Part shown: positions 2,633-21,239 of the stretch, in pieces
How positions within the stretch are numbered: the first letter of the stretch is position 1
Layout: the number at the start of each line of letters is the position of its first letter
Assembly (NCBI RefSeq): GCF_003024155.1
Contig: NZ_CP028136.1
Coordinates: forward strand, 2,852,001-2,916,000
Origin: Christiangramia fulva
GTDB lineage: Bacteria; Bacteroidota; Bacteroidia; Flavobacteriales; Flavobacteriaceae
Length of the DNA stretch: 64,000 nucleotides
Direction of reading: 5' to 3'
The notes under the pieces: generated by a model
The model's input: only the letters and a program-made list of their open reading frames with translations
What the model was told of the DNA's origin: nothing
Databases searched by the model: none
Made by a program: the position numbers and the translations under genes

Positions 2633-2750
2633 ATTCCGCATATCCGTTTTCTCCATCTTTTGCGAGTTCGTAGCTACCTAAACCATATTTTTTAATTTGA
2701 TTTAAATAATAATTTACTTGATCCTGATCTTTATTGTTTTCTTCTGACAT
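2633..2750 (-). pseudogene. Truncated copy of the HEPN-like cassette gene (5' end only)
   Basis: From 2633 to about 2780 the sequence is essentially identical to 13163-13312, the first ~39 codons and leader of the gene at 12533-13282. The ATG is at 2748-2750. The rest is replaced by the IS3 remnant. This is therefore the distal, IS-disrupted cassette of the array. The attC-like site at 2776 is preceded by the same cassette end as the full copy. Confidence 0.85.
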
Positions 2751-2775
2751 AGAAACATTCAAATAAATAATGCAC

Positions 2776-2901
2776 AACGGATACGTATATTCGTCAGTTG
2801 TGGTTGTGAAGATATGGATTTGTCCGATTTAGTTTTTTAAATTCTTGGTTTCTACGAATTTTGTTTTAGTTCAATGGCCGCAATTGCGAATATGCGATGT
2901 T
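2776..2901. repeat. attC-like site A
   Basis: AAC 2776-2778 to GTT 2899-2901. Arm GTATATTCGTCAGTTGTGG pairs with CCGCAATTGCGAATATGCG (same class as H and Q). The central box TTGTCCGATTTA is present. It separates the truncated distal cassette from the PD-(D/E)XK cassette, whose ends are GTTGTAGGTA and TACCTACAAC. Confidence 0.85.
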
Positions 2902-2912
2902 GTAGGTAGTTT

Positions 2913-3866
2913 TTATTGGATCAAATCTTCTTGAGTAACCGAAATCATATCGGATTTCCCAATTTTACTTGCTGATTTCCTTTCAGCTACATCGATTACT
3001 ATGAAATAATAATTTTTATGGTTGATAGTTAACATTGGAGGATAGAAACCCTTATTACCGTTTAAATCCAAATTAATTTGTGCTTTGTCAAAATTAAATA
3101 TTACAAGAAATCCTTGTGTTTTGTTATAATTTTCTGTGTACTGTCTAATTTGAGTAAAACCTTCGCTAATTCTATGTTTTCCGTATTTTTTTTGCCGATC
3201 AAAGATTTTAATTTCAATAATTAATGGATCTGAAGTGTTTATGTTGCCTACAATATCTGCTCTACCCGATTTTGACTTAGGAGTTGAAAACGGATAATCT
3301 ATTCCCTGATCGAATAGAAACATTCTCAAATCGTCTTCTAGTGAATCCTCATAATTCTTGTTTTGAGAGGTATATTGATTTAATAATTTTTCAGCGGTAA
3401 ACCATTCTGTTCGCTTCTTATATTTTTCCAATAGATATACTATAGAATTATGATTTTCTAATGAATCTGCTATGAATTGTAAAAATGGAAGAATTAGATC
3501 GGAACAAATTCTTTTTTGATTTTCATGATAGTTCCCAAAATAAAAATGGGTTAGTCGGTGAATATTAAAATTATATTTTTTGGCTAGATATTTTGTTACC
3601 TGATAACATATCGAAGCTCTATGTTCTAAACTCTCGGTTCCAATTTCATAAAACTGGAATTGTAGATCGTCATCTAGTTTTTTTAGTTCTTGTTCATTTA
3701 GAAAATATTTTTTTTCAGCTTCAGTTATAATACCCTTTATTGTAGCATTATCTTCAATGTTTTTAAGTAGAAATTTCAAATCAAATTGAAAATTATCTAA
3801 GGTTGAATTTTGAACTCTGATATACCAATCATTAATATTCTGAACAAGATTTTTATTATAATACAT
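2913..3866 (-). CDS. Cassette gene: PD-(D/E)XK nuclease-like protein
   Basis: The function is unproven. The 317-aa product has a helical N-terminal half without a recognised family and a C-terminal segment with the layout of a PD-(D/E)XK nuclease core. This comprises E173/E177, then GRAD with D204, then IEIK with E218 and K220, then QIRQY (Q239, Y243), the QxxxY feature seen in many restriction-like nucleases. This suggests DNA cleavage in a defence setting. It is a single-gene cassette between sites A and B; its stop lies 10 bp inside the cassette end. No own promoter was found, so it probably depends on upstream transcription. Confidence 0.72.
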   Translation of the reverse strand: MYYNKNLVQNINDWYIRVQNSTLDNFQFDLKFLLKNIEDNATIKGIITEAEKKYFLNEQELKKLDDDLQFQFYEIGTESLEHRASICYQVTKYLAKKYNFNIHRLTHFYFGNYHENQKRICSDLILPFLQFIADSLENHNSIVYLLEKYKKRTEWFTAEKLLNQYTSQNKNYEDSLEDDLRMFLFDQGIDYPFSTPKSKSGRADIVGNINTSDPLIIEIKIFDRQKKYGKHRISEGFTQIRQYTENYNKTQGFLVIFNFDKAQINLDLNGNKGFYPPMLTINHKNYYFIVIDVAERKSASKIGKSDMISVTQEDLIQ

Positions 3867-3898
3867 AGAAGCTCAAATTTTGATTAAAAATTACCTAC

Positions 3899-4024
3899 AA
3901 CGGTTTGCGGTTATCGCAAGTTACGGGAGTAGGGACGCGAACTTGTCGGATTATTTATTTTCTTTCCTGGTTTCTAAAATTACACTTTTTCGGCAAAACC
4001 CGTAATTTGAGATGAACCGCTGTT
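3899..4024. repeat. attC-like site B
   Basis: AAC 3899-3901 to GTT 4022-4024. Arm CGGTTATCGCAAGTTACGGG pairs with CCCGTAATTTGAGATGAACCG. The central box is CTTGTCGGATTA. It lies between the PD-(D/E)XK cassette and the lipoprotein cassette, whose ends are GTTGTAAAC and GTTTACAAC. Confidence 0.85.
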
Positions 4025-4034
4025 GTAAACAGTT

Positions 4035-4556
4035 CTAGTTGAATTCTACAGGTAAAAATTCTTGTTCAGGAACTTTTTCAATATCGCAAGGATTTTTAAC
4101 TACTCTTAATTTCTTTGCTAGTTTCAATCTTGTAATAACTCTTTTTCCCTGATTTTTATATTTAGGGAAATTCCATTTAAATAAAATTAAATTCTTTTTT
4201 TGTTTAATAAGTTTAAAAATGAATTCCGCTTTTAAATTTTCATTTTGACTTTTTATTAAAATACTATCATTTGTAACATTGTATTCAGAAATTTCAAATT
4301 TCGTCGGTTCATCGATTTGATGTTTTAAAAGAATAGATTTATTATCGATTATTATCTCGGGAGTTTGTCCATCACAGGGATCATATAAAAAATAACCTTC
4401 TTTATCTCTTTCAAGTTCTATCCACTCACCATTTAAGTCATTAAGATTATTCCATTTCTCTTTCGGTATATATTCAGCTGAATTTTGATTAAGGTTTGTT
4501 TCACAAGAGTAAATTATTCCAATTAAAATCAGAATTAAAATTTGTTCTTTTCTCAT
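4035..4556 (-). CDS. Cassette gene: small lipoprotein of unknown function
   Basis: The 173-aa product starts with a lipoprotein signal: MRK, a hydrophobic stretch of about 14 residues, then the lipobox IYSC (Cys18). The mature part is polar, probably beta-rich, and ends with a pair of prolines and acidic residues (VPEQEFLPVEFN). I recognise no family. The predicted location is a lipid-anchored envelope protein. It fills the cassette between sites B and C alone, with the start about 20 bp from the cassette end and no visible promoter. Confidence 0.75.
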   Translation of the reverse strand: MRKEQILILILIGIIYSCETNLNQNSAEYIPKEKWNNLNDLNGEWIELERDKEGYFLYDPCDGQTPEIIIDNKSILLKHQIDEPTKFEISEYNVTNDSILIKSQNENLKAEFIFKLIKQKKNLILFKWNFPKYKNQGKRVITRLKLAKKLRVVKNPCDIEKVPEQEFLPVEFN

Positions 4557-4575
4557 AACTTTCTGAATTGTTTAC

Positions 4576-4697
4576 AACGGTTTTGGTTAACGCAAGTGCG
4601 GGAGTAGGGACGCGAACTTGTCAGTTTAACGTTTTCTAATTGGTCTCTAAAATATCGAATTTTATTGAAATACCCGCTATTTGCGATAACCAGTGTT
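4576..4697. repeat. attC-like site C
   Basis: AAC 4576-4578 to GTT 4695-4697, 122 bp. Arm TTGGTTAACGCAAGTGCGGG pairs with CCCGCTATTTGCGATAACCAG. It is nearly identical over its whole length to site J, and close to O. It separates the lipoprotein cassette from gene-free cassette copy 1. Confidence 0.86.
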
Positions 4698-5099
4698 ACC
4701 TAGAGTTGCGCCACGTTCGAGTACACACGAAATGATTGGCCGGCGTTGCGGAAAGGGCAGCTCAAAATCAACAATTTCAGTTCGGATTAAAAATCAGAAT
4801 ATTTTCTTTCCTGGATTTTTCAGCCAGCCTTTTTTTGAACTCTCTTTTCAATGGAATTTTGTTGTTCAGTAAGGGTCGAAATTGGAGGTTTTTAATCCAT
4901 TTTTCTAAATCTTGAAAATCTCTGTTTTTAAAGGCTTTTTTGAAAATTCTATTTCAGCAGGATTTTTCAGTTGAACTTTTTTTCCGAACATTCAGTTTAC
5001 CAAAGCGCTTCCAGATTTATCGAATTTCGCCTGACAGGAAAATTAAAACTTTTTGCTCCAACTTGATCTTTCTGTATTCCGGTTGGCGCAATTCTTGGT
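4698..5099. repeat. Gene-free cassette, copy 1
   Basis: About 400 bp without a convincing gene on either strand. It is near-identical to 9943-10343 and clearly related to 15942-16340. Its ends pair as GTTACCTAGAGTTGCGCCA with TGGCGCAATTCTTGGTAAC (two non-Watson-Crick positions, one a G-T). A short conserved reading stretch ending KVLIFLSGEIR on the minus strand lacks a start codon in all copies. The stretch 4557-5267 therefore holds only sites C and D and this cassette. Confidence 0.8.
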
Positions 5100-5222
5100 A
5101 ACGTCAAAGCATATGATTTCGGGCGGGAATAAAGGCACGGAGGTGTCCGAAGTGGAGAAAAGCTTTGTAAAATCCAAGACTAAACGCAAACACAAAAACC
5201 CGCCTGAATTATATGCAATGTT
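5100..5222. repeat. attC-like site D (divergent)
   Basis: AAC 5100-5102 to GTT 5220-5222. The sequence is unlike the other sites, but the layout is the same. Arm GCATATGATTTCGGGCGGG pairs with CCCGCCTGAATTATATGC, the centre reads CGGAGGTGTCCG, and it ends AATGTT. It follows the gene-free cassette and precedes the only cassette with a plus-strand gene. Confidence 0.78.
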
Positions 5223-5267
5223 GTAGGTATGTAAGCCTACGGATTTGAAAAATAAAACTTAAAAAAT

Positions 5268-5432
5268 ATGATAACAGCATTAGTACATTACAAACAATGG
5301 GTAGATGCAGGACACCCACTACTTGACGGAACTTGGGTAGACCATTCCCAGGTGGTTGAAGTATTGAAATTAACAGACTTGAATGATATGTTTAGGCATA
5401 TTACCAAGATTGAAATATTAGAACAAACGTAA
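5268..5432 (+). CDS. Small 54-aa protein encoded opposite to the array
   Basis: ATG 5268 to TAA 5430-5432 encodes a 54-residue soluble-looking protein with a balanced composition (MITALVHYKQ... to ...EILEQT). The A-rich leader before the ATG suits Bacteroidota translation starts. The minus-strand alternative in this cassette has a Cys/Ser-rich, unlikely sequence starting inside site E, so the plus-strand frame is preferred. No family is recognised. Being antisense to array transcription, it would need its own promoter, and no exact TAnnTTTG box is visible. Its cassette has the longest terminal inverted repeat of the array. Confidence 0.6.
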   Translation: MITALVHYKQWVDAGHPLLDGTWVDHSQVVEVLKLTDLNDMFRHITKIEILEQT

Positions 5433-5449
5433 GTAGGCTTATTACCTAC

Positions 5450-5577
5450 AACGGTCTCGCATAACGACAAGTGGCGCGGAATTATGGATGCGGATTTGTC
5501 GGCTTACCAATTTAGTTTATTATGGAAACTAATTTAGTTCTTTTTTCTAAAACCCGCCATTTGCGATATGCGTTGTT
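5450..5577. repeat. attC-like site E
   Basis: AAC 5450-5452 to GTT 5575-5577. Arm CGCATAACGACAAGTGGCG pairs with CGCCATTTGCGATATGCG, with extra unpaired bases on the left arm. The central box is TTTGTCGGCTTA. Same class as F, I and N. The next cassette ends are GTTGCCTGC and GCAGGCAAC. Confidence 0.88.
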
Positions 5578-5595
5578 GCCTGCTGTAATTAATTT

Positions 5596-6402
5596 CTATT
5601 CTTTGTCTCTGATCTCTAAATCATAGAAATATTCTTTTCCACAAGGACATTCTTCAATTAACTCAGGCTCATAAAAATTGATCATTTTTTTTACCGCTAA
5701 AATTGCTCTTGTATAGTCAAATTTTATGAGCTTTCTATAGGTTGATTTATATTGAGTGTTTGTGTTTTCTTCAATAGGTTTTAAGTGAATAATTTCATTC
5801 CTGAGTTCAATTAATAATCGAATTATTAAATTATCCCTTTTAAATTTACTCTTGAATTTTTTTCCTTTTATTTCAGGTAGAGCCTTATCTATCTTATGGA
5901 AAACAGATGGTTCAAACTTATCTCCATTTTTATCTAAAAATGGGTGATCTTCTGGGATTTGGCGATTCGCAAAGCTTTCTATGGCAGATTGTAAATTAAT
6001 TATACAATTAGCTGCAAACTGAAAAAAGAATGCAAAATCTTTTTCATCTATTTCTTTCCTTAAATTTCTGAAAGTTGGCGATTTTTTAAAAAGATTTTCT
6101 CTTTTAAAAATTAAGTTTCTATGAAACATAACAGCATTTGAATAGAAAATCGAGGTAGGGTTTAATTCTAATTGAATTAGTTTTTTTCCTTTATGTAAAA
6201 AATCAAATCCAAATACAACTGAGTTGTCAAATTCTAAAAACATATCAAATCCTAATTCATCGGATAACTTATCAGTTTTTGAATATTGCTTTTGAATTTC
6301 TTTACTTCCTGTTGGGCTTTCAATATCCTTGGAAACTTCTTGAATATCTATTTTCTTTTCATATTTCTTAGTAGGCTTATATTTTATGTGGGTCAGATGC
6401 AT
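5596..6402 (-). CDS. Cassette gene: HEPN-like protein with R-x4-H
   Basis: The 268-aa product has a charged N-terminus, a middle region with long helices (FAFFFQFAANCIINLQSAIE, about 123-142) and RNEIIH at 201-206. This R-N-x3-H arrangement, after a helix and before another, is the catalytic signature of HEPN ribonuclease folds found in toxins and phage-exclusion proteins. A C-terminal CPCGKEYF segment has two cysteines. A role in RNA cleavage or abortive infection is inferred, not shown. It is a single-gene cassette between sites E and F, starting 38 bp inside the cassette. Confidence 0.66.
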   Translation of the reverse strand: MHLTHIKYKPTKKYEKKIDIQEVSKDIESPTGSKEIQKQYSKTDKLSDELGFDMFLEFDNSVVFGFDFLHKGKKLIQLELNPTSIFYSNAVMFHRNLIFKRENLFKKSPTFRNLRKEIDEKDFAFFFQFAANCIINLQSAIESFANRQIPEDHPFLDKNGDKFEPSVFHKIDKALPEIKGKKFKSKFKRDNLIIRLLIELRNEIIHLKPIEENTNTQYKSTYRKLIKFDYTRAILAVKKMINFYEPELIEECPCGKEYFYDLEIRDKE

Positions 6403-6439
6403 TTGTTAGAATTTCGGATCGTCAATAATTATTGCAGGC

Positions 6440-6567
6440 AACGGCTTCGCATAACGACAAGTGGCGCGGAGTTTTGGATGCGGATTTGTCGGCTTACCGG
6501 TTTTGATTGTTATGGAAACTAAATTAGTTCTTTTCTATTAAACCCGCCATTTGCGATATGCGTTGTT
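6440..6567. repeat. attC-like site F
   Basis: AAC 6440-6442 to GTT 6565-6567. Arm CGCATAACGACAAGTGGCG pairs with CGCCATTTGCGATATGCG. It is almost the same as E (the left edge reads AACGGCTTCGC). The next cassette ends are GTTACCTGC and GCAGGTAAC, extended by GCGA/TCGC beyond a two-base interruption. Confidence 0.88.
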
Positions 6568-6580
6568 ACCTGCTGGCGAT

Positions 6581-7624
6581 TTAACTATAGCTTTCTTCTA
6601 GTTTGGTAATTATTACCTTATAAATTTCTTCAAAGGTCATATTCTTGTTTTTGACATAATTGTCAAGTTCTTTGAAAACTATCTTTGATTTTGGCCAAAG
6701 TCGGTCATACTCAAAATCTCCTATTTTCTTACCATAGTTTAATGCAATTATTTTAGCAGTAATTCCACGAACAATTATTTCATCAATATTTGTTCTTTCA
6801 TTTTTGAACTTGTCACTTTTTAGTTTTTCGTCGAATTCATCAGTGTAATATCTGTGAAATAAATCCTCAGTATACAAATGACTGTTCTCGTGAAAAGTAA
6901 TTCTTCTATTTGTTTTATTCCATTTTGGAGTTAGAGATTTGTTTAGATCTATCGAATCTGATTTTTCACAAATATTAGCTAATAGGTATTTTCTTATTGA
7001 ATCATTTTCTGGTAAAAATGTAATTGACCTGCTTGTGATATTGTTTAAAGGATCAAAATATATAATCAAATTTGGTTGTTTCTCAACCCTAAAAAAGTTA
7101 TTCAGCTTCTGAGTTATTTTATTAGTCTTTATAGAATCTTTTAGTGGGATGAAGTTTATATCATATTCGTTTCTAAAATTAATAGTTTCTTTAAAATTTG
7201 AAATTAGCCTGGAAACTGAATCAATATTTTTTCCATACCAACCAAATTGATTTTCTAATTGAGATTTATCTAAATTCGATTTTGGTTTTAAATTCTTGTT
7301 CAATGCTAAAGCTAAAACTGGCAAATCTCCATTCCATAAATCTCCTTTGGCAATTTTTTGAACAAAAGGATGATTGGAATATTTTTTATAAGGTAAATAG
7401 TTTTCGGAGTAGAATTTGTCTTTACAAGGTCTTAAATCCGGCGATATACTATCCATTATTGCCAAATTATAAGCTAATCGGAATAGTTCTATTCGATCGT
7501 CTACCTTAATTTCAATTGAAGAATTGGCTTTCTCCGATATTTGTTTCTTAGATTTTTGGTTTCTGTTACAGCCCGAAATAACTAATGTCAATATTAAAAT
7601 TAATAGCTTGTAATTCTTAATCAT
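6581..7624 (-). CDS. Cassette gene: lipoprotein with HExxH, putative metallopeptidase
   Basis: The 347-aa product begins with a lipoprotein signal and lipobox ISGC (Cys19). In the second half, TFHENSH gives a zinc-binding H245-E246-x-x-H249, and E282 in DEIIVRG is a candidate third ligand 33 residues on. This gluzincin-like spacing suggests a lipid-anchored zinc protease or a related DUF4932-like protein. The family assignment is a guess from the motif. It is a single-gene cassette between F and G, and no promoter is visible. Such envelope-anchored cargo is unusual next to toxin-type cassettes. Confidence 0.64.
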   Translation of the reverse strand: MIKNYKLLILILTLVISGCNRNQKSKKQISEKANSSIEIKVDDRIELFRLAYNLAIMDSISPDLRPCKDKFYSENYLPYKKYSNHPFVQKIAKGDLWNGDLPVLALALNKNLKPKSNLDKSQLENQFGWYGKNIDSVSRLISNFKETINFRNEYDINFIPLKDSIKTNKITQKLNNFFRVEKQPNLIIYFDPLNNITSRSITFLPENDSIRKYLLANICEKSDSIDLNKSLTPKWNKTNRRITFHENSHLYTEDLFHRYYTDEFDEKLKSDKFKNERTNIDEIIVRGITAKIIALNYGKKIGDFEYDRLWPKSKIVFKELDNYVKNKNMTFEEIYKVIITKLEESYS

Positions 7625-7665
7625 TCGGTTTTCTTCTTTTCTCGATTTTTAATTCGCTTGCAGGT

Positions 7666-7788
7666 AACGGTCCCGGTTAACACAAGTTGCAGGAGTAGGG
7701 ATACGTACTTGTCATTTTAGATCTGGTTTGTTGATCAAGTTAATTAATTTCTTTCTAATGCACCCTGCAATTTGTGATAACCGTTGTT
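7666..7788. repeat. attC-like site G
   Basis: AAC 7666-7668 to GTT about 7786-7788 (1 bp uncertainty). Arm CGGTTAACACAAGTTGCAGG pairs with CCTGCAATTTGTGATAACCG. The central box is ACTTGTCATTTTA. The inner sequence GTTTGTTGATCAAG resembles sites R and S. The next cassette ends are GTTAGCC and GGCTAAC. Confidence 0.84.
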
Positions 7789-7796
7789 AGCCACAG

Positions 7797-8399
7797 TTAT
7801 GATTTAAAGTTCTTTATAATCTGATCAAAATCTTTGTTTTCTGTATTCATTACAATCATAGTGATTGTTTTTAATCCTTGTGTAACTAAATATTGTGTCA
7901 AATAAAGTTCTTTTCCTTTCTTTATTCTTTTAAACTTCACCTTAATAATATCTGCATAAATCGGTTTATAGAATTCTTTTTCCAATAATTTATACTCCGT
8001 GCTGTCTTCTTTATCATCTTTAAATGAAGTCATTTTAAGCATATCTATATATTTATACATAGTCTTTTCATTTAAACTGATATGTTGACCAAGTATAAAA
8101 ATTATGGAATTCTGAGGATTGTCTTTATCTACGAAATATTCAAATTGAACACCTGAATTTATCAATTGTAAATATTTTCTGTGGTTTAATGATAGTTTAT
8201 CAATTGTATCGGTAGTAGCTAATCTTTGTTGAAAAATTGAATCCTTAGAGGCATCAAAGTAATTACCGGGAATATAAAATTCTTTTTCTAAGAAATTTAT
8301 TTTTTTTAATTCATAATCCGGGAATTTACTATGCAACTCATTTTCTGTATTCTTGCATCCGAGTAGTAATACTATAACTAGCAGAAAAATTTTTCTCAT
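7797..8399 (-). CDS. Cassette gene: small lipoprotein of unknown function
   Basis: The 200-aa product opens with a short lipoprotein signal and lipobox LLGC (Cys15). The mature region looks like alternating strands and helices; the last third (VKFKRIKKGKELYLTQYLV) may be one beta hairpin of a soluble domain. No family is recognised. It is predicted to be anchored to the inner or outer membrane facing the periplasm. It is a single-gene cassette between G and H; the start lies about 10 bp from the cassette end, leaving no room for its own promoter. Confidence 0.72.
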   Translation of the reverse strand: MRKIFLLVIVLLLGCKNTENELHSKFPDYELKKINFLEKEFYIPGNYFDASKDSIFQQRLATTDTIDKLSLNHRKYLQLINSGVQFEYFVDKDNPQNSIIFILGQHISLNEKTMYKYIDMLKMTSFKDDKEDSTEYKLLEKEFYKPIYADIIKVKFKRIKKGKELYLTQYLVTQGLKTITMIVMNTENKDFDQIIKNFKS

Positions 8400-8409
8400 A
8401 ATTGGGGCT

Positions 8410-8534
8410 AACGGTCCCGTATATTCGTCAGTTGCGGTAGTGAAGATACGGATTTGTCCGATTTAGTTTTATAATTCCTGGTTTGTATAATCTTTCTTTT
8501 AGCTGAATGGCCGCAATTGCGAATATGCGATGTT
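8410..8534. repeat. attC-like site H
   Basis: AAC 8410-8412 to GTT 8532-8534. Arm GTATATTCGTCAGTTGCGG pairs with CCGCAATTGCGAATATGCG. The central box is TTTGTCCGATTTA. Same class as A and Q. The next cassette ends are GTTGTGTGCAGTAC and GTATTGCACACAAC. Confidence 0.87.
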
Positions 8535-8546
8535 GTGTGCAGTACT

Positions 8547-9083: not shown

Positions 9084-9096
9084 GAGTATTGCACAC

Positions 9097-9224
9097 AACG
9101 GTCTCGCATAACGACAAGTGGCGCGGAGTTATGAAAGCGGATTTGTCGGCTTACCGTTTTTGTTTGTTATGGAAACTAATTTAGTTCTTTTCTTTAAAAC
9201 CCGCCATTTGCGATATGCGTTGTT
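9097..9224. repeat. attC-like site I
   Basis: AAC 9097-9099 to GTT 9222-9224. Arm CGCATAACGACAAGTGGCG pairs with CGCCATTTGCGATATGCG. The central box is TTTGTCGGCTTA. The next cassette ends are GTTGTGCGC..TATGC and GCATA..GCGCACAAC. Confidence 0.88.
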
Positions 9225-9244
9225 GTGCGCTGTATGCTTTATTT

Positions 9245-9811: not shown

Positions 9812-9820
9812 ATTGCGCAC

Positions 9821-9942
9821 AACGGTTTTGGTTAACGCAAGTGCGGGAGTAGGGACGCGAACTTGTCAGTTTAACGTTTTCTAATTGGTCTCTAAAATAT
9901 CGAATTTTATTGAAATACCCGCTATTTGCGATAACCAGTGTT
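9821..9942. repeat. attC-like site J
   Basis: AAC 9821-9823 to GTT 9940-9942, 122 bp. It is nearly identical to site C, including the inner loop sequence. The pairing arms are TTGGTTAACGCAAGTGCGGG and CCCGCTATTTGCGATAACCAG. It precedes gene-free cassette copy 2, so cassette and site were probably duplicated together. Confidence 0.87.
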
Positions 9943-10343
9943 ACCTAGAGTTGCGCCACGTTCGAGTGCACACGAAATGATTGGCCGGCGTTGCGGAAAG
10001 GGCAGCTCAAAATCAACAATTTCAGTTCGGATTAAAAATCAGAATATTTTCTTTCCTGGATCTTTCAGCCAGCCTTTTTTTGAACTCTCTTTTCAATGGA
10101 ATTTTGTTGTTCAGTACGGGTCGAAATTGGAGGTTTTTAATCCATTTTTCTAAATCTTGAAAATCTCTGTTTTTAAAGGCTTTTTTGAAAATTCTATTTC
10201 AGCAGGATTTTTCAGTTGAACTTTTTTCCGAACATTCAGTTTACCAAAGAGCTTCCAGATTTATCGAATTTCGCCTGACAGGAAAATGAGGACTTTCTGC
10301 TCCAGCTTAATCTTTCTGATTTCCAGTCGGCGCAATTCTTGGT
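9943..10343. repeat. Gene-free cassette, copy 2
   Basis: About 400 bp, with only scattered substitutions from copy 1 (4698-5099). Ends pair as GTTACCTAGAGTTGCGCC with GGCGCAATTCTTGGTAAC. No start-to-stop frame is shared by the three copies. With its flanking sites it accounts for the whole gene-free stretch 9812-10466. Confidence 0.8.
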
Positions 10344-10468
10344 AACGGTCCCGGTTACCGCAAGTTGCGGGATTAAGGACGCGGATTTGTCGGATTACCT
10401 CTTTTCTTTCTTGAATTCTAAAATTACACTTTTTCGAAGACACCCGTTATTTGCGGTGAACCGATGTT
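10344..10468. repeat. attC-like site K
   Basis: AAC 10344-10346 to GTT 10466-10468. Arm CGGTTACCGCAAGTTGCGGG pairs with CCCGTTATTTGCGGTGAACCG. The central box is TTTGTCGGATTA. The stop codon of the next gene is built from the GTTATAA at its right edge. The next cassette ends are GTTATAAGCC and GGCTTATAAC. Confidence 0.87.
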
Positions 10469-12397: not shown

Positions 12398-12523
12398 AAC
12401 GGTTACGGTTAACGCCAGTGTGCGGAATATAGCACGCGGAGTTGTCGGCTTATTATTTTGTTGTTTGGGGTTCTAAGTTATCGATTTTGTTGGAATACCG
12501 CGTATTGGCCGTTAACCGATGTT
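12398..12523. repeat. attC-like site L
   Basis: AAC 12398-12400 to GTT 12521-12523. Arm CGGTTAACGCCAGTGTGCGG pairs with CCGCGTATTGGCCGTTAACCG, a class of its own. The central box is GTTGTCGGCTTA. The next cassette ends are GTTGTGCATTGTTTATT and AAATAAATAATGCACAAC. Confidence 0.87.
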
Positions 12524-13307: not shown

Positions 13308-13433
13308 AACGGTCTCGGCTATCGCAAGTTGCGGGAGTTGGGACGCGGAGTTGTCGGTTTAATCGGTATCTTGCCTGATTTATAAAAATTACACTTTTTC
13401 GACTAAACCCGTTATTTGCGATGAGCCGTTGTT
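13308..13433. repeat. attC-like site M
   Basis: AAC 13308-13310 to GTT 13431-13433. Arm CGGCTATCGCAAGTTGCGGG pairs with CCCGTTATTTGCGATGAGCCG: the C opposite G in place of the usual T/A pair keeps the stem. The central box is GTTGTCGGTTTA. The next cassette ends are GTTGGGTGC and GCACCCAAC. Confidence 0.88.
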
Positions 13434-15187: not shown

Positions 15188-15210
15188 AATTTTGTTTGAA
15201 GCTTGCACCC

Positions 15211-15338
15211 AACGGTCCCGGTTAACGACAAGTGGCGCGGAGTTATGGATGCGGATTTGTCGGCTTACCGATTTTGTTTGTTATGGAAACTAATTTAGTT
15301 CTTTTTTCTAAAACCCGGCATTTGCGATAACCGTTGTT
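15211..15338. repeat. attC-like site N
   Basis: AAC 15211-15213 to GTT 15336-15338. Arm CGGTTAACGACAAGTGGCG pairs with CGGCATTTGCGATAACCG. It is a hybrid of class E with the CCGGTTA edge of the B/K class. The central box is TTTGTCGGCTTA. The next cassette ends are GTTGGCAGC and GCTGCCAAC. Confidence 0.87.
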
Positions 15339-15346
15339 GGCAGCTG

Positions 15347-15748
15347 TTATAAGTTAGCATTTACACTTCTTACTTTTTTAAGGAAAAGTATTTTGCGTAC
15401 TCCAAAAAGAATTAACCATAAACCGACTAAAAAAGTAATTAATATCATAGCGAAAGTTGAGTTTAGCAACTCTTGAAATAATAGATAAAAAATTCCAACT
15501 GCATATAAAATTGAAAAAATTCCGGTATAAATTTTTATTCCCTCTAGATATTTCTTTTTAAGAATATCAGAAATTCCGATTATTAATAGGAAGATTAAAT
15601 CGATAGATATTAGTATGGTTAGTAGAACATTTTTCCAATCGAAATCTGATTCTTTATTGATTATTAATAAAGCATATCCAAATAAGAAAATAAATATGAA
15701 TCTTGATATTTTCCAAAATATTCGTGTTTTAGAGAAAAATTTTTCCAT
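15347..15748 (-). CDS. Cassette gene: small integral membrane protein
   Basis: The 133-aa product has four predicted membrane segments (about 13-30, 42-60, 74-90 and 98-118) with basic residues on the loops next to the membrane (KKKYLEG, RKILFLKK). No family is recognised. It could be a phage-exclusion or immunity-type membrane protein, but nothing in the sequence proves it. It is a single-gene cassette between N and O. The 70 bp upstream of its start contains no exact -7 box. Confidence 0.72.
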   Translation of the reverse strand: MEKFFSKTRIFWKISRFIFIFLFGYALLIINKESDFDWKNVLLTILISIDLIFLLIIGISDILKKKYLEGIKIYTGIFSILYAVGIFYLLFQELLNSTFAMILITFLVGLWLILFGVRKILFLKKVRSVNANL

Positions 15749-15816
15749 AGTTCAGTTATAATTATTCTTTTTGAATCCTTTTGTTCTTTATTCTACACAC
15801 AAAAATAATTGCTGCC

Positions 15817-15941
15817 AACGGTTTTGGTTAACGCAAGTGGCGCGGAGTAGGGAGGCGAACTTGTCAGTTTAACGTTTTCTAATTGGTCTCTAAAATATCG
15901 AATTTTATCGAAATACCCGCTATTTGCGATAACCGGTGTTG
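15817..15941. repeat. attC-like site O
   Basis: AAC 15817-15819 to GTT 15939-15941. Arm TTGGTTAACGCAAGTGGCG pairs with CGCTATTTGCGATAACCGG. It is close to C and J, but its left arm ends GTGGCGCGG like class E. It precedes gene-free cassette copy 3. Confidence 0.86.
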
Positions 15942-16340
15942 TAATAAGTTGCGCCTCATTCGAGTGAGCACGAACTGATTGGCCAGTGTTGCTGAAAAGG
16001 CCGTTAAAATCTTTCAATTTTAGCAGCAATAAATTCTCTTTTTCTTCTTTTCTGAATCTTTCAGCCAAACTTTTTTTGAACTAACTTTTCAATGGAATTT
16101 TGTTGTTCAGTAAAGGTAGAAATTGGAGGATTTTTAATCCATTTTTCTAAATCTTGAAAATCTCTGTTTTTACAGACTCTTTTTCAAATTCTATTTCAGC
16201 AGGATTTTTCAGTTGGACTTTTTTCCGAACATTCAGTTTACCAAAGAGCTTTCAGATTTATCGAATTTCGCCTGACAGGAAAACGAGAACTTTATGCTCC
16301 AACTTGATCTTTCTGTTTTCTGGTCGGCGCAATTTTTTAC
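15942..16340. repeat. Gene-free cassette, copy 3
   Basis: About 400 bp, clearly homologous to copies 1 and 2 but more diverged, chiefly in the left 100 bp. Its ends are GTTGTAATAAGTTGCGCC and GGCGCAATTTTTTACAAC. Both edges differ from copies 1 and 2, yet still match each other. Apart from the short leader of the membrane-protein gene (15749-15816), it accounts with sites O and P for the gene-free stretch 15749-16478. Confidence 0.78.
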
Positions 16341-16466
16341 AACGGTTTGCGGTTATCGCAAGTTGCGGGAGTAGGAACGCGGACTTGTCAGATTAACTAT
16401 TTTCTTTCCTGGTTTCTAAAATTACACATTTTCTGCAATACCCGTTATTTGCGATGAACCGCTGTT
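16341..16466. repeat. attC-like site P
   Basis: AAC 16341-16343 to GTT 16464-16466. Arm CGGTTATCGCAAGTTGCGGG pairs with CCCGTTATTTGCGATGAACCG. The central box is CTTGTCAGATTA. The next cassette ends are GTTAGGTGTA and TATACCTAAC. Confidence 0.87.
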
Positions 16467-16478
16467 AGGTGTAGTTTT

Positions 16479-16778
16479 TTATTCTCGAATCCTTCTTTTT
16501 AAATCCATACTTCCGTGTAATATTCTTGTGATTTCAATCTCATCTATAGAAATCTCGCGATAAAATATAATATGTTTTTTTACTCTTAATCCGAGTAATC
16601 CAGAAGTAATTCCTTCATAGTTTTTTCCCAAGAATGGTTTTTGAGTTATTTCCTCAAAACTTTCAATCAGATTTTGATAGTAAATGTCAGCTTGTTGTTC
16701 TGACCATTTTTCTAGTGTATAATCCCAAATATTAGCTAAATCAGCGACTGCCTTTTTGGTTAAATAATATTTAGCCAT
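16479..16778 (-). CDS. parE: Cassette gene: ParE/RelE-family toxin
   Basis: The 99-aa product has the RelE/ParE layout: N-terminal YYLTKKAVADLANIWDYT helix pair, central KPFLGKNYEGI loop, and a C-terminal beta sheet with GLRVKKHIIFYR and ITRILHGSMDLKRR. ParE members poison gyrase; the family also includes mRNA interferases, and which applies cannot be read. It overlaps the upstream antitoxin gene by 8 bp. Its own promoter inside the cassette (17037-17067) means this TA pair can be expressed wherever the cassette sits. Confidence 0.88.
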   Translation of the reverse strand: MAKYYLTKKAVADLANIWDYTLEKWSEQQADIYYQNLIESFEEITQKPFLGKNYEGITSGLLGLRVKKHIIFYREISIDEIEITRILHGSMDLKRRIRE

Positions 16779-17022
16779 TCAGTCGTTTATTTGATTTTAA
16801 AGATTCAAGATGTTTTTTTGGATCGAAATTGTAATCAATTCCACTATCAATTCCTTCTTGAATTGCATTTTTCAATGCAGCAACTTTACTTTCTTCTTCT
16901 TCTAATAATCTTAATCCAGCGCGAATGACTTCGCTAACATTTTTGTATCTGCCTTCATTTATTCTACTTCTAACAAATTGGTCAAAGTAATCACCTAATG
17001 ATATGGACGTGTTTTTATTCAT
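16771..17022 (-). CDS. parD: Cassette gene: ParD-family antitoxin
   Basis: The 83-aa product has an N-terminal ribbon-helix-helix (TSISLGDYFDQFVRSRINEG then YKNVSEVIRAGLRLLEEEE), the ParD DNA-binding fold, and a disordered C-terminus (DPKKHLESLKSNKRLNG) that would wrap the toxin. It precedes and overlaps parE. The palindrome-like CCAAAATTGG (17046-17055), in the spacer of its promoter, is a plausible autoregulatory site. Confidence 0.88.
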   Translation of the reverse strand: MNKNTSISLGDYFDQFVRSRINEGRYKNVSEVIRAGLRLLEEEESKVAALKNAIQEGIDSGIDYNFDPKKHLESLKSNKRLNG

Positions 17023-17036
17023 TTTTCATCTTTTTT

Positions 17037-17067
17037 CAAATATACCCAAAATTGGTAACTTTCACAA
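17037..17067 (-). promoter_or_regulatory. Cassette-internal promoter of the parDE-like pair
   Basis: On the minus strand, TTG (17065-17067), a 20-bp spacer and TATATTTG (17037-17044) match the Bacteroidota TTG/TAnnTTTG promoter. It lies about 15-45 bp upstream of the parD start, inside the cassette. The spacer contains CCAA-AA-TTGG, a candidate operator. Confidence 0.68.
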
Positions 17068-17084
17068 GTTGAAAAATTATACCT

Positions 17085-17209
17085 AACGGTTGCGTATAAT
17101 CGTCCGTTGTGGTAGTGAATATACGAATTTGTCAGTTTAGTAGTATCGTTCCTGGTGAATGAGCGTATTGTTTTAATTCAAATGGGCACAATTGCGATTA
17201 TGCGCTGTT
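17085..17209. repeat. attC-like site Q
   Basis: AAC 17085-17087 to GTT 17207-17209. Arm GCGTATAATCGTCCGTTGTGG pairs with CACAATTGCGATTATGCGC. The central box is TTTGTCAGTTTA. Class of A and H, with changed bases in both arms. The next cassette ends are GTTAGCTTGC and GCAAGCTAAC. Confidence 0.87.
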
Positions 17210-17224
17210 AGCTTGCGTAAGTTA

Positions 17225-17521
17225 TCAGATCTTTCTCCTATATAAATCGCGAGCAGAATGATGTACAGTAAGAATATCAATTCTTTCTGGATCAATTATT
17301 TTATAAATTATCCGGTAATTTCCTTCAATCAGTTCTCGAATATTTTGTTGATTAATTTCTTCTGTAATTTTCCCTGAATAGATTTGAGATTTTAATATTC
17401 TAGTTCGAGTTGTTATTCTTAAAACTTGAAGTTTAGCATACTTTTTGGAATCTTTTGAAATATATTCAGCAATATCTTGTAGATCATTTTTTGCTTGAAT
17501 AGTCCAATTTATTCGAACCAT
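17225..17521 (-). CDS. Cassette gene: RelE/ParE-family toxin
   Basis: The 98-aa product fits the ParE toxin pattern: WTIQAKNDLQDIAEYISKDS helix, central helix, then RELIEGNYRIIYKIIDPERI and ILTVHHSARDLYRRKI, the conserved C-terminal sheet with VHHSARDL. It overlaps the upstream antitoxin gene by 13 bp. Second TA cassette in a row, after the parDE-like pair. Target (gyrase or mRNA) is undetermined. Confidence 0.88.
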   Translation of the reverse strand: MVRINWTIQAKNDLQDIAEYISKDSKKYAKLQVLRITTRTRILKSQIYSGKITEEINQQNIRELIEGNYRIIYKIIDPERIDILTVHHSARDLYRRKI

Positions 17522-17691
17522 TTGTCAATCTCATTATTTAAGTCAGATTCAGAAATTATTTCTCCTTTTTCAGATTGTTTATTTCCATTCTCAATTTTTT
17601 CAATTAAGATCAAACGTTCGACCAGTTGGTCAATTGAAAATTGCTCTGGAAAACTTTCAATCTGTTGTTTTAAAGTTGTTTTGGTCAACAT
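17509..17691 (-). CDS. Cassette gene: small antitoxin of the ParE/RelE-type toxin
   Basis: The 60-aa acidic product (MLTKTTLKQQIESFPEQFSI then DQLVERLILIEKIENG and ISESDLNNEIDKWFE) matches the short antitoxins paired with ParE-type toxins in Bacteroidota. It lacks an obvious DNA-binding fold. The terminal part would bind the toxin. It is the first gene of the cassette between Q and R and overlaps the toxin gene. The spacer upstream contains only an imperfect -7 match (TATCTTTC). Confidence 0.8.
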   Translation of the reverse strand: MLTKTTLKQQIESFPEQFSIDQLVERLILIEKIENGNKQSEKGEIISESDLNNEIDKWFE

Positions 17692-17761
17692 AACTCAAAT
17701 TATTTATAATCGGAAAGATACAATTTTATGTTCTTTACTGCTAACAAAATTTATGCAAGCT

Positions 17762-17886
17762 AACGGTCTCGGTTATCGCCAGTTGGCGGAATAAGGTACG
17801 CGGATTTGTCGGCTTAGTATTGGTTTGTTGGTCAAGTTAATTATTTTCTTTCTAACGGTGCCGCTTATTGGCGATGAACCGTTGTT
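17762..17886. repeat. attC-like site R
   Basis: AAC 17762-17764 to GTT 17884-17886. Arm CGGTTATCGCCAGTTGGCGG pairs with CCGCTTATTGGCGATGAACCG. The central box is TTTGTCGGCTTA. The class is shared with S. The next gene's stop codon uses its right-edge TTA. The next cassette ends are GTTATATGCA and TGCATATAAC. Confidence 0.88.
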
Positions 17887-18772
17887 ATATGCAGTTTTTG
17901 TTAAGCACACCTTCCATTTCTCTATCTTTTGAATCTAGAATATGTTTTTTTGAAGTTATATTAATGATATTCCAATATTCATTCTCATCTAGAATGTCCC
18001 ACATTAAATTATTACCCTCATAATCTTTTAATTTACCACTTCTCACAAATTCCAAAGTTTTTGGATGTTTTAAAAACATTTCTTGTTGTTCTTTGAACAT
18101 TGCTTGAGTGGCTTCAATCATTTTCTTGAGAGATTCGTCCGTTCTCTTTGTTAAATAAATGCATTCATCAAAATCTTCATTTTTACCATACACTCCTTGA
18201 GCATCATAACTACGCCATTTATGAACTTTAATGGAAAAAATTTCTGAACCCATATTTTCAGGAACATTTGAATTTTGTGTTATTTCGAAAACTTCTTCTT
18301 TAAAGTATAAGTTTAAAATGAATAGAGCTGCTAGAATATCAAATAAGTATTTTAATGATCCAAAATGTAAAGATTCATATCTATTATGTTTTAAATTTTG
18401 ATATGCATTATTCCAACTATAGGTTAACTTATTTCTAAAATTTTTCTCTTTTTTTATAAATGGTTTGATGATCTTTTGAGATTGGAAACAAGAAGAAGAA
18501 CTTATAATAATAACTTTATCTTCTAATTTCCATATTTGATTTAAATGCTTGATACAGTCTTTGTCAAATAATATGTTATTCTCTTTGACTCCTCCATTCT
18601 TTTTATAAAGTTCTTTGGCAATGGATTCTATTTCTGCTGCAGACCTTAAAATCAGATCTGAAATTTTAGAGGAATAAACATTTATTTGATTATCATCAAT
18701 ATGTATATCATAGGTTAATTTAGCCAATTCTGACTCTATGTTCTTGTATACAGGCCAGTAAATATTTGTCAT
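17885..18772 (-). CDS. Cassette gene: hypothetical protein with KHNR motif
   Basis: The 295-aa product is mainly helical. Residues 119-131 read SWNNAYQNLKHNR, followed by a long hydrophobic helix (SLKYLFDILAALFILNLYF). This arrangement (W-x-x-x-Y-x-x-x-K-H-x-R before a helix) recurs in uncharacterised proteins of defence-like loci and may be a variant of the HEPN active site, but the R-x4-H signature itself is absent. The C-terminal third is acidic. It is a single-gene cassette between R and S; the stop codon lies in the site core. Confidence 0.66.
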   Translation of the reverse strand: MTNIYWPVYKNIESELAKLTYDIHIDDNQINVYSSKISDLILRSAAEIESIAKELYKKNGGVKENNILFDKDCIKHLNQIWKLEDKVIIISSSSCFQSQKIIKPFIKKEKNFRNKLTYSWNNAYQNLKHNRYESLHFGSLKYLFDILAALFILNLYFKEEVFEITQNSNVPENMGSEIFSIKVHKWRSYDAQGVYGKNEDFDECIYLTKRTDESLKKMIEATQAMFKEQQEMFLKHPKTLEFVRSGKLKDYEGNNLMWDILDENEYWNIINITSKKHILDSKDREMEGVLNKNCI

Positions 18773-18794
18773 ATTTTTCTTAAAAATTGCATAT

Positions 18795-18919
18795 AACGGT
18801 CTCGGTTATCGCCAGTTGGCGGAGTAGGGAACGCGGATTTGTCGGCTTATTATTGGTTTGTTGGTCAAGTTAATTATTTTCTTTCTAACGGTACCGCTTA
18901 TTGGCGATGAACCGTTGTT
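18795..18919. repeat. attC-like site S (closest to recombinase)
   Basis: AAC 18795-18797 to GTT 18917-18919. Arm CGGTTATCGCCAGTTGGCGG pairs with CCGCTTATTGGCGATGAACCG. It is nearly identical to R. It closes the first cassette, whose ends are GTTGGCAACC (18917-18926) and GGTTGCCAAC (20018-20027). Confidence 0.88.
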
Positions 18920-18933
18920 GGCAACCGTTAATT

Positions 18934-20052
18934 CTAAAAGGTTTTGTTGTGAAGTTCAATAACAAAATCTTCAAATGCGGAAAGACATTTTCTTCCAAAT
19001 TGAACTTGTACAAAAATTGGATCTGCACTATGATCTTCCATATTAAATGAAGCTTCGTACATTGAGTAATGCACAATTCTATGTCTGTATTTTATTACCT
19101 CTTTTATTAAATCAATTTTTTCAGTTGGAATATTTAAATTTTCAAAAAAGGAAATATTATATCCTTTTTTAAAAGCTGTATTGCACCTTTTGAAATTTTG
19201 AAAATCAATTCTTTTCTTATCTACAATATATTTTAAAGGAGATACATTATTTTCTCTTGCTTTTTCAATTATATATTCTTCAATATTATTTTCTTTTTCA
19301 AGTTTTGTAGAAAATGAATTCAATAAATCAGAAAAATTTAAAGTTTTTCCTTCCTTTTCCATCTCTAAAAATCTGGTTTTACAATAACTTTCAAAACCCG
19401 TTACCATAATTACTAAGGCCATATTGGTAATTACGGATTCCCATCTTTTTTCTTCACTTTTAGACTTACTATCGAATAGAAGATTTATTGCATCAACTTT
19501 ACTTTGCCAATTATCTCTTGCTGTCGGCTGAATAAATGGTTTTCCTCCGACATACATTTCAAACCCCATCGTTTGAACGTTATCATCACCAATTTGAATT
19601 ACTCCACCATCTGGTGCAACTCTAAATTTTTTATTTGAATTTTCACCTTCACCCGTCAAAACTTTCTTATCACCAGTTGTATTTGTAATGTGTAAGCTTA
19701 TGTTTTCTGGCTTCCAGGTCATAAAGATTCTTATGCCTTCGGAATAAGATAAATCTGAAATATTTACTGTCGCTACTTTAGTTCCTGTACCAGGTGAAGA
19801 GCGGTAATATTTTAAATTTACATTATTGTCTTTCTCAAGTCTATAATATATTTCACCAGCTACTATTTCGTAAATAATTCCTCCTAAATCCTTTTCGAAA
19901 AGTTTATCTGCACTAAATGTAAATGAAAATGTACCTTCAGGAATCTTCAGGTTTTCAATCACTTCTTTACTATGTGGGTTTTGAAAATTTTTTGGATTCA
20001 CGACTTTTGATTTTAATGGTTGCCAACTCGTTATATCCACGTAAATATACAT
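18934..20052 (-). CDS. First cassette gene: beta-sandwich/HEPN fusion
   Basis: The 372-aa product has an N-terminal beta-rich domain (about 35-170). It includes GTFSFTFSADK and RIFMTWKPENISLHI, reminiscent of LamG/concanavalin-like sandwiches. A helical domain follows with VIKYRHRIVHYS, where R323 and H328 give the HEPN R-x4-H signature. The start ATG lies two bases after the recombinase stop (TAA-TA-ATG), so it is coupled to the recombinase. Codons 1-9 lie outside the cassette end at 20027, so the first residues come from the recombinase side. An internal GTG could be the cassette's own start. Confidence 0.7.
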   Translation of the reverse strand: MYIYVDITSWQPLKSKVVNPKNFQNPHSKEVIENLKIPEGTFSFTFSADKLFEKDLGGIIYEIVAGEIYYRLEKDNNVNLKYYRSSPGTGTKVATVNISDLSYSEGIRIFMTWKPENISLHITNTTGDKKVLTGEGENSNKKFRVAPDGGVIQIGDDNVQTMGFEMYVGGKPFIQPTARDNWQSKVDAINLLFDSKSKSEEKRWESVITNMALVIMVTGFESYCKTRFLEMEKEGKTLNFSDLLNSFSTKLEKENNIEEYIIEKARENNVSPLKYIVDKKRIDFQNFKRCNTAFKKGYNISFFENLNIPTEKIDLIKEVIKYRHRIVHYSMYEASFNMEDHSADPIFVQVQFGRKCLSAFEDFVIELHNKTF

Positions 20053-20057
20053 TATTA
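20018..20057 (-). other. Candidate attI-like junction between recombinase gene and array
   Basis: GGTTGCCAAC (20018-20027) is the exact partner of GTTGGCAACC at 18917-18926, the other end of the first cassette, so the cassette boundary falls here. Beyond it (TCGTTATATCC...) the attC-like arms are absent. The recombinase stop codon is at 20055-20057. A recombination site embedded between a stop codon and the first codons of the next gene would be a very small attI. Confidence 0.6.
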
Positions 20058-21215
20058 TCCGAGAATGTTTCGGGATAAACGCAGGTTTGGGTTTCCATTA
20101 TCCGTAGCCCCTTTATCAAGTAGATCTTTTAAACTCCTGTCTAACGGGCTTTCAATTTTCGTAAGGTCATGACGCGTTACATGGGTGTAGATCATCGTGG
20201 TTTCCGGTTTTGCGTGCCCCAGTAAAGCCTGGATGTAACGTAAATCTGTTCCGTTTTCCAGCATATGTGTAGCGAAACTGTGCCTTAAGGTATGTGGGGT
20301 AACTCTTTTCCTGATCTTCGCCCGTGCTGAAGATTCTTTTAAAAAACTACGAATTGACGAAGAAGAGTATTGACTTCCCTGGTACCCTTCCACAAAAAAA
20401 CGCTTAGGTTCATAGGTTTGAACATAATTAAAGAAAAGTGGCAAAAAACTTTCGGCTAGCATCACATAACGGTCCTTCCTGCCTTTTGACTGTTTTATTT
20501 GTATTTGCCGCCGGTCAACATCTATATCTTTTAGCTCAAGTTTTATCAGCTCGCCAATTCTTAGACCCGAAGAATAAATGAGCGCCAACACACTGCGATG
20601 CTTTAAATTTCGTGTAACCCGCAAAATATCCAGGATTTCTTCCTTGCTCAAAACACTGGGCAGATAACTGCTTTTTTTGGGCCTTTTCAGCTGAGTCGTG
20701 TCAAAAGCCGCATTTTCGCTAAGATCAAAATAATGTTTCAGAGCGCTGATGCATTGCCTATGAGTACTAATAGAGTAGTTTTTTTCAGCAATTTCGGCCT
20801 CGACAAATCGGGCTACATCGGTTTCAGAATATTCCTCTTTGAAATTGTGGAATCTCAGGAACTTTTCGGTAAAAGACATATAAGTGCAAATGGTACTTTC
20901 ACTATGTCGCAATCCCTTCAGGTACCTGTGGTAGCCCACAATTTTTTCATTATTGACCTCAACTGTCTTTTCTTCGGGAATTTTTGAAAAATCCAGCAGG
21001 GACTGGTTCATAATAATATGGTTTTTGCGGAGATGTTCTGATAGTTCATGAAGGATTTTCCTATTCGCGGGAACATAAAAACACCCGTGGGTTTTAGTCC
21101 ATCGCACCGCCTCTAATTGCTTAAGAGTTTCTTTTATTTGAAGGTCGAATTTGAAATCGATGCCGATCTGTTCCCTGTTTTTATGCCGAAACAGGAATAA
21201 ACTTACTTTTTTCAT
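20055..21215 (-). CDS. XerD-like tyrosine recombinase adjoining the cassette array
   Basis: The 386-aa protein has a ~70-residue N-terminal module (RWTKTHGCFYVPANRKILHEL) common in Bacteroidota recombinases, a SAM-like core-binding domain (about 85-175) and a catalytic domain. The residues are R219 (SGLRIGEL), K244, H308-R311 (HTLRHSF), H334 (LLGHAKPETT) and nucleophile Y343 (MIYTHV). K244 to H308 is 64 residues, like XerD (172 to 244) and unlike IntI1 (171 to 277), so the IntI-specific segment is missing. It is on the same strand as the cassettes and is the best candidate to move them. Its promoter probably also transcribes the array. Confidence 0.9.
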   Translation of the reverse strand: MKKVSLFLFRHKNREQIGIDFKFDLQIKETLKQLEAVRWTKTHGCFYVPANRKILHELSEHLRKNHIIMNQSLLDFSKIPEEKTVEVNNEKIVGYHRYLKGLRHSESTICTYMSFTEKFLRFHNFKEEYSETDVARFVEAEIAEKNYSISTHRQCISALKHYFDLSENAAFDTTQLKRPKKSSYLPSVLSKEEILDILRVTRNLKHRSVLALIYSSGLRIGELIKLELKDIDVDRRQIQIKQSKGRKDRYVMLAESFLPLFFNYVQTYEPKRFFVEGYQGSQYSSSSIRSFLKESSARAKIRKRVTPHTLRHSFATHMLENGTDLRYIQALLGHAKPETTMIYTHVTRHDLTKIESPLDRSLKDLLDKGATDNGNPNLRLSRNILG

Positions 21216-21231
21216 ATAGCGATAATTCAGT

Positions 21232-21239
21232 CAAATATA
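21232..21239 (-). promoter_or_regulatory. -7 element upstream of the recombinase gene
   Basis: TATATTTG on the minus strand matches TAnnTTTG and ends 17 bp before the recombinase ATG (21213-21215). A clear TTG -33 element at normal distance is not evident. With no other promoter before the first cassettes, this could drive recombinase and array together. Confidence 0.55.

Follow-up and report, generated by a model that had tools for sequence, protein, structure and literature searches.

An integron-like cassette array in Christiangramia fulva beside a tyrosine recombinase without the I2 insertion of integron integrases

We analyzed 64,000 nucleotides of the Christiangramia fulva chromosome (RefSeq assembly GCF_003024155.1, contig NZ_CP028136.1, forward-strand positions 2,852,001 to 2,916,000; hereafter the window), in which a long array of gene cassettes ends at the gene for a tyrosine recombinase. 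We consider it probable that this is an integron-like chromosomal array, in which the adjacent recombinase, an enzyme without the I2 insertion, brings cassettes in and out through recombination between an attI-like site and cassette sites folded as single strands. In tests of its array, its cassette borders and its platform the locus looks like an integron, and in the tests for membership in the integron integrase (IntI) family it failed. That cassettes are recombined by this system here is what we infer from the sequence. Genomes and loci are cited by our own G and L labels.

The window contains 19 attC-like sites of 122-128 bp (plus-strand coordinates 2776-2901 to 18795-18919, Table 1), the exact ends of which could be read directly; the minus-strand form of each is 5'-AAC...GTT-3'. 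A covariance model (R1) made from 18 of these sites, with the divergent site 4 excluded, recovered its 18 sites in the window with E-values of at most 1.3e-19, all on the plus strand, and the next match had an E-value of 0.049. An earlier sequence-only reading had described the array as one of unidirectional genes with AT-rich cargo, starting at position 2633. The genes indeed lie on the minus strand throughout, with the exception of one short plus-strand frame, noticed by eye, in the cassette between sites 4 and 5. The low G+C content was borne out as well, with 0.285-0.344 per kb over positions 3001-20000 and 0.346-0.482 to the right of 20001. The array does not, however, stop at 2633. In the complete 4.38-Mb chromosome, R1 gave 72 matches at E-values up to 1, and 43 of them (rows counted by hand) make up the main array, on one strand, at genome positions 2828286-2870919 (42.6 kb). 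Eighteen lie inside the window and 25 to its left (2828286-2850194; the window starts at 2852001), so that the array extends 22 kb beyond the window on this side. It is broken by a transposase-gene region at 1-2226, which we take to be a gene pair resembling IS21 istA/istB, and by what is presumably a transposase remnant at 2400-2632. The adjoining stretch 2633-2780, at site 1, is a cut copy of the cassette start 13165-13312 at site 13, with 100% identity over 148 nt. Two further R1 clusters are present in the same genome, with 10 sites at 4182058-4192478 and 6 sites at 3737508-3744787. In another genome of the genus (G019:C1:2191111-2376930), the site matches listed extend over 186 kb adjoining its recombinase, a size similar to that of the Vibrio cholerae superintegron.

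The repeating unit of the array is a gene with its 3' site, and the two ends of each cassette are private inverted repeats starting at GTT. When the attI end is placed by reading at 20025-20027, the six bases after GTT match fully between the own ends of 14 of the 19 cassettes. With the attI end placed otherwise the count is 13 of 19, and it is to this count that the control belongs, in which ends from different cassettes matched fully in 2 of 342 pairs. Three copies of a roughly 400-nt cassette that has no long open reading frame (ORF) are present (4698-5099, 9943-10343 and 15941-16340). Between copies 1 and 2, the identity is 98% over a 300-nt stretch made up of the 3' site and the gene part next to it; at the other end these two abut different sites, with GTT as the breakpoint. 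Copy 3 is less closely related. A Vibrio paper (PMC11014356) has the promoter activity of gene-less cassettes as its subject.

By position and sequence, a putative attI adjoins the recombinase gene, at its 3' end, and the GTT at 20025-20027 is the start of cassette 1. Of 30 orthologues, 27 have a motif [CG]ATATA[AG]C-NN-GT within 130 nt behind the recombinase stop codon, 23 of these exactly 17 nt after it, and the strict form GATATAAC-NN-GTT occurs in 23 of the 30. Five of the 27 carriers represent other genera of the family (G025, G028, G030, G031 and G035); among the 30 orthologues examined, the motif was not found behind the stop codon in G009, G029 and G054. Among members of the genus, the conserved sequence also takes in the last part of the recombinase gene. 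Among 43 loci of a collection of named genomes, some of them not from Bacteroidota, the strict or a near motif was present at most 30 nt from the stop codon in four and at 152 nt in one, and the remaining loci have other sequences there. As judged by eye, the window and many relatives have a short frame whose ATG falls within the attI-like site and which continues into the first cassette; some relatives lack this ATG. ORF11 of attI1 likewise starts inside attI and enters the first cassette. The HEPN-type ORF of cassette 1 (18934-20052; PF18735 just above cut-off) has its ATG inside the attI-like site. G009 (L074; also L059), a draft genome with two site matches, has a more distant recombinase (52%) and neither the conserved gene end nor the attI-like motif.

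The GTT behind the recombinase is also the start of cassettes that are common to other species. Within the genus, cassettes in first position after attI match interior cassettes elsewhere, with 91.6% identity over 1049 nt for G012/G020, 95.0% over 337 nt, up to the contig end, for G005/G012, and 77.6% over 634 nt for G016/G020; G004 and G016 have a stretch of at least 1634 nt in common that is 99.2% identical. The window cassette between sites 17 and 18 corresponds to the first cassette of Zunongwangia mangrovi (L129:11234-11805; 87.6% over 573 nt); the recombinase of that species is 43% identical to the one in the window. This cassette begins at GTT in both genomes, after attI in Z. mangrovi and after a site in the window.

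The recombinase at the end of the array has residues R219, K244, H308, R311, H334 and Y343, which are invariant in 13 aligned members of its family. It fails the integron integrase model TIGR02249 (196.1 bits, cut-off 265). No integron integrase above this cut-off was found in the complete 4.38-Mb genome, in which the best, failing match is the window recombinase itself. The distance from the catalytic lysine to the histidine is 64 residues, as had been read from the window sequence alone, and 64-69 residues in 56 of 56 family members, compared with 106 in 30 of 30 IntI proteins and 72 in 21 of 21 Xer proteins, the value also of the genus's own Xer. The I2 insertion, accordingly, is absent from all 56 family members and present in all 30 IntI proteins. 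The recombinase also fails the Xer models (XerA, NF040815, 212.4 vs 220 bits; XerD, 178.6 vs 329.6; XerC, 168.9 vs 335.15), with NF040815 as the best NCBIfam match. This genome (G000:C1:3670306) and related genomes have a separate Xer-type gene for a protein of 299 amino acids (aa).

The recombinase and the sites occur together. Sites were detected in 23 of 24 genomes of the genus, C. fulva included, and the same 23 have one full-length recombinase orthologue; the genome with neither (G023) is 67% complete. In regions of 3 to 20 kb around the recombinase gene, sites were present in 18 of 20, versus 0 of 21 in 20-kb regions at the 299-aa Xer gene. One of the two recombinase regions without sites comes from a genome that is 73% complete (L074), and the other ends 170 bp past the gene (L079). 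Beyond the genus, R1 matched 13 of the best 80 named loci (out of at least 590 relatives), all from Bacteroidota, and 32 of 32 matches lay downstream of the recombinase on the same strand. We then used a second model (R2), made from 131 sites near recombinases, for genome-wide searches with a threshold of E 0.001, the E-values being rough, and took E 1e-60 or better as the threshold for the recombinase family. In the class Bacteroidia, 188 of 295 genomes have R2 sites. Both partners are present in 135 genomes, the family only in 16, sites only in 53 and neither in 91 (Fisher p 4e-22, uncorrected for kinship). Only the best few candidates per genome were scored, and the site and protein counts in the class are therefore lower bounds. 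The association of sites with this recombinase, which the sequence-only reading had proposed to look for in Bacteroidota genomes with a covariance model, was thus found. Both checks that could have overturned that reading, a canonical intI elsewhere in the genome and a missing statistical link between family and arrays, came out in its favour.

IntI proteins above cut-off were found in 1 of the 295 class Bacteroidia genomes and, across the phylum at large, in 105 of 395. Sixty of these 105 genomes, all outside the class, were searched for the present system: 23 have sites and 19 the recombinase family (both 14, family only 5, sites only 9, neither 32; p 1.9e-4). At nine loci of this set, chosen because site and recombinase shared one contig, the sites adjoin the family recombinase in all cases, and the lysine-histidine distance is 64-65 in all nine. 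At 15 IntI loci, R2 had matches in three, four of them in G063 (32-61 bits) and two weak ones (23-26 bits) in each of the others. The genes belonging to the four sites of G063 (L276:3041-5704) run in the opposite sense, the C-terminus of its IntI reads unusually, and its only strong match to the recombinase family, about 140 kb away, contains one stop codon.

Two arrangements of array and recombinase gene were observed. The array of the window, like those of L305-L307, lies behind the recombinase gene on its 3' side. The arrays of L291-L294 and L299-L304 begin at the 5' end of the gene and lead away from it, which is the layout of ordinary integrons. The recombinases of L299-L304 are short (280-319 aa, with 9-48 residues before the core compared with 94 here) and have no N-terminal domain, and those of L291-L294 do have it. 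In the window recombinase, the model of this domain of about 80 residues has a predicted local distance difference test (pLDDT) value of 92.8, and the top rows of Foldseek and VIA-align are XPB/UvsW damage-recognition domains, with weak scores. In the long form of the enzyme, the modelled domain may assist in holding distorted DNA. It does not seem to be essential, because the shorter relatives without it also adjoin such arrays.

Covariation of the sites was scored on a hand-set structure of 22 pairs, in which 87.8% of the cells of the alignment pair and 10 pairs vary on both sides. The score was 0.229, versus 0.108 in shuffles, none of 500 shuffles reached the observed value, and the score fell to 0.091 or less when the pairing partner was slid. 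A single unpaired base in the stem is present in only part of the sites. The ends of attC cores follow the consensus RYYYAAC / GTTRRRY; GTTRRRY fits 2 of the 19 site ends, and the attI end GTTGGCA does not fit it. DNA folding of the site bodies predicts a bias towards the bottom (plus) strand, which folds better in 18 of 19 sites and has more end-to-end pairs in all 19. For the circular form of the cassettes, the mean predicted bottom-strand energy is -29.2 kcal/mol, versus -19.1 kcal/mol in the array, and it is lower in 19 of 19 cases; the bottom strand is predicted to beat the top strand for 19 of 19 cassettes as circles and for 17 of 19 in the array. The outer arms of a site in the array come from two different cassettes and are mostly unpaired; those of a circle pair. 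With their lower predicted energy and paired arms, circles are therefore predicted to be better substrates than sites in the array. The own-end arms extend about 16 nt past GTT. In 18 of 19 cassettes, at the position eight bases outside GTT, a T of one end faces a G of the other on the bottom strand, where the top strand has an A/C mismatch.

In the reaction that we propose, a cassette would be excised as a circle, so that its own ends meet as a long arm. The bottom strand of the circular site would then fold, and the recombinase would cut next to GTT and join the cassette to attI. The G.T wobble, available on the bottom strand only, would help in the choice of strand.

Three other explanations have to be weighed. 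The first is a double-stranded, Xer-like reaction at the GTT core, in which the palindrome would merely bring two binding boxes together. The Xer-like fold, with 5hxy XerA as the best match among solved structures, and the missing insertion would be in keeping with such a reaction, as would sequences resembling inverted double-strand boxes, seen by eye behind the recombinase gene of some relatives. The predicted bottom-strand bias of all 19 circular forms, the G.T wobble and the single unpaired stem bases of some sites, which are also a feature of folded attC, argue against it, and we regard it as unlikely. An ordinary integron whose integrase diverged and lost I2 is somewhat less likely still. 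IntI sequences (14, with 3 further rows) form one branch with 100/100 support and the family outside it, the insertion is missing throughout the family, and the site ends rarely agree with GTTRRRY. On the other side, a grouping of the family with IntI was not rejected in an approximately unbiased (AU) test (p 0.104), NCBI calls some members 'site-specific tyrosine recombinase/integron integrase' (which is also a generic title of the XerA model), and the site model weakly matches the two IntI loci mentioned above. Because the AU test leaves a group of the family and IntI standing, the family may have arisen independently of IntI or be its sister, and either of the options of the sequence-only reading, an independent or an ancestral system, may hold. 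That the sites are a dispersed palindromic repeat, similar to repetitive extragenic palindromic (REP) sequences or miniature inverted-repeat transposable elements (MITEs), moved by another enzyme with the recombinase as a bystander, is very improbable, since the two remote clusters in this genome and the class genomes with sites only would suit such a repeat, but the contrast between recombinase and Xer loci, the unit of gene and site with breaks at GTT, and the shared cassettes that begin at the attI-like GTT of the recombinase would not.

Several observations weigh against recombination of folded sites by this recombinase. In 19 further recombinase regions (17 from other genera, 2 from the genus, most with more distant recombinases and many at contig ends), R1 found sites in only 5. 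In the class, 53 of the 188 site-bearing genomes have no strong match to the family, and 16 of 151 genomes with the family have no site match. At the canonical IntI locus of G063, the four sites lie 4 kb from IntI, and no family recombinase is present within 40 kb. The fold z-scores of single sites, calculated for four of them, are modest for the bottom strand (-1.4 to -2.2; top strand, -0.6 to -1.2). The Z. mangrovi and window cassettes have the gene part in common but are followed by different site bodies, so that simple cassette transfer does not explain the pair. The bases adjoining GTT/AAC are identical despite the different site bodies, and this may show how arrays acquire sites of one local type. 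Finally, passages of PMC7790495 hold that the I2 helix enables IntI to use folded attC and say that intermediates are lacking. The absence of I2 thus counts against the use of single strands, unless some other part of the enzyme takes over this role.

We lean towards a wider reading, in which these loci represent a second, phylum-wide integron lineage of Bacteroidota with attI and attC types of its own, two geometries and an I2-less recombinase that would work on folded single strands. The ability to use single strands would then have arisen without I2, or would predate it. The searches that we made of open-access papers showed no description of this system. Passages of the IntegronFinder 2.0 survey (PMC9024848) give one complete integron for Bacteroidetes, in Salinibacter ruber M1, and others for Chlorobi and Ignavibacteriae, and mention only cassette-less integrases in Bacteroidetes for the earlier edition; the sites of 188 of 295 class Bacteroidia genomes reported here are of another type. 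Parts of PMC8618304 and PMC2426708 list integrons, or intI, from Bacteroidota or from the Bacteroidetes/Chlorobi group, and attC features are treated in part of PMC2727003.

Sedentary chromosomal integrons of the V. cholerae type resemble the present system in many ways. They have long one-way arrays of a gene and its 3' site with breaks at GTT, a platform site by the recombinase gene, a predicted bottom-strand folding bias, toxin-antitoxin and defence cargo, ORF-less cassettes and IS110/IS1111-type elements in sites. Unlike integrons, the present system has a recombinase that fails the IntI model, is without I2 and falls outside the IntI branch, site ends that begin GTTR and mostly do not follow GTTRRRY, the long own-end arms and, in the window, an attI at the 3' end of the recombinase gene with the array continuing in the same direction. 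The likeness to archaeal-type XerA and other Xer proteins lies in the nearest solved structures, the lack of I2 and the best NCBIfam match. The housekeeping Xer gene of these genomes, however, has no such site beside it, and many members of the present family have the extra N-terminal domain. As with integrase-less site arrays, a search with the IntI model alone would show sites without an integrase, if the sites were detected, but here a recombinase adjoins the array in a conserved position. The pdif or Xer-cis modules of Acinetobacter plasmids, in which genes lie between Xer-type recombination sites, have this placement of genes in common with the present arrays; the sites here differ in being 122-128 bp long with a long imperfect dyad and in having no link to the host Xer genes.

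If the proposed reaction is correct, integron-type gene capture would also be the work of a second lineage of enzymes, in Bacteroidota. A large part of gene capture in class Bacteroidia, with toxin-antitoxin and phage-defence cargo, would then have been overlooked. The system also bears on how a double-strand recombinase gained the use of folded single strands, for which the I2 helix is the answer given in the passages of PMC7790495 referred to above; an I2-less family working such sites would make this question of origin testable in the laboratory.

Table 1. Positions of the cassette sites, attI-like site, selected cassettes and recombinase in the window
Feature	Positions	Strand	Remarks
Site 1 of window	2776..2901	+	exact ends and R1; array continues leftwards
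Site 2	3899..4024	+	exact ends and R1
Site 3	4576..4697	+	exact ends and R1
Site 4, divergent	5100..5222	+	missed by R1; same ends, cassette-specific flanks
Site 5	5450..5577	+	exact ends and R1
Site 6	6440..6567	+	exact ends and R1
Site 7	7666..7788	+	exact ends and R1
Site 8	8410..8534	+	exact ends and R1
Site 9	9097..9224	+	exact ends and R1
Site 10	9821..9942	+	exact ends and R1
Site 11	10344..10468	+	exact ends and R1
Site 12	12398..12523	+	exact ends and R1
Site 13	13308..13433	+	exact ends and R1
Site 14	15211..15338	+	exact ends and R1
Site 15	15817..15940	+	exact ends and R1
Site 16	16341..16466	+	exact ends and R1
Site 17	17085..17209	+	exact ends and R1
Site 18	17762..17886	+	exact ends and R1
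Site 19	18795..18919	+ (= bottom strand)	exact ends and R1
Cassette without long ORF plus own 3' site, copy 1	4576..5099	-	related copies 9821-10343, 15817-16340
Cassette gene part, ParE-type toxin and partner ORF	17207..17764	-	sequence match to Zunongwangia mangrovi first cassette
Cassette 1 gene part	18917..20027	-	own-end inverted repeat GTTGGCAACC at 18917 and 20027
attI-like site (putative) at 3' end of recombinase gene	20025..20084	-	ends in GATATAACGA followed by GTT; conserved motif
Tyrosine recombinase, 386 aa, no I2 insertion	20055..21215	-	PF00589 and PF13495 above cut-off
N-terminal domain code, residues 1-82	20970..21215	-	modelled fold

The cargo of the array includes an AbiU2-type HEPN protein (9245-9820), a fused AriAB-like protein (10467-12374), a GmrSD-type protein that matches NsnA in PADLOC (14078-15208) with a HEPN partner (13389-14078), and two ParE-type toxin modules (16479-17022 and 17225-17691). 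Several cassette proteins have no family assignment.

In integrons, IS1111 elements have attC sites as their target, according to passages of PMC11187229. In five genomes, an element of about 1.2 kb lies just behind the AAC of a site, at eight places in all (two each in L073, L075 and L076, one each in L078 and L081). Both L076 elements encode IS110-type transposases, with PF01548 and PF02371 above cut-off, and the other copies were matched by DNA only.

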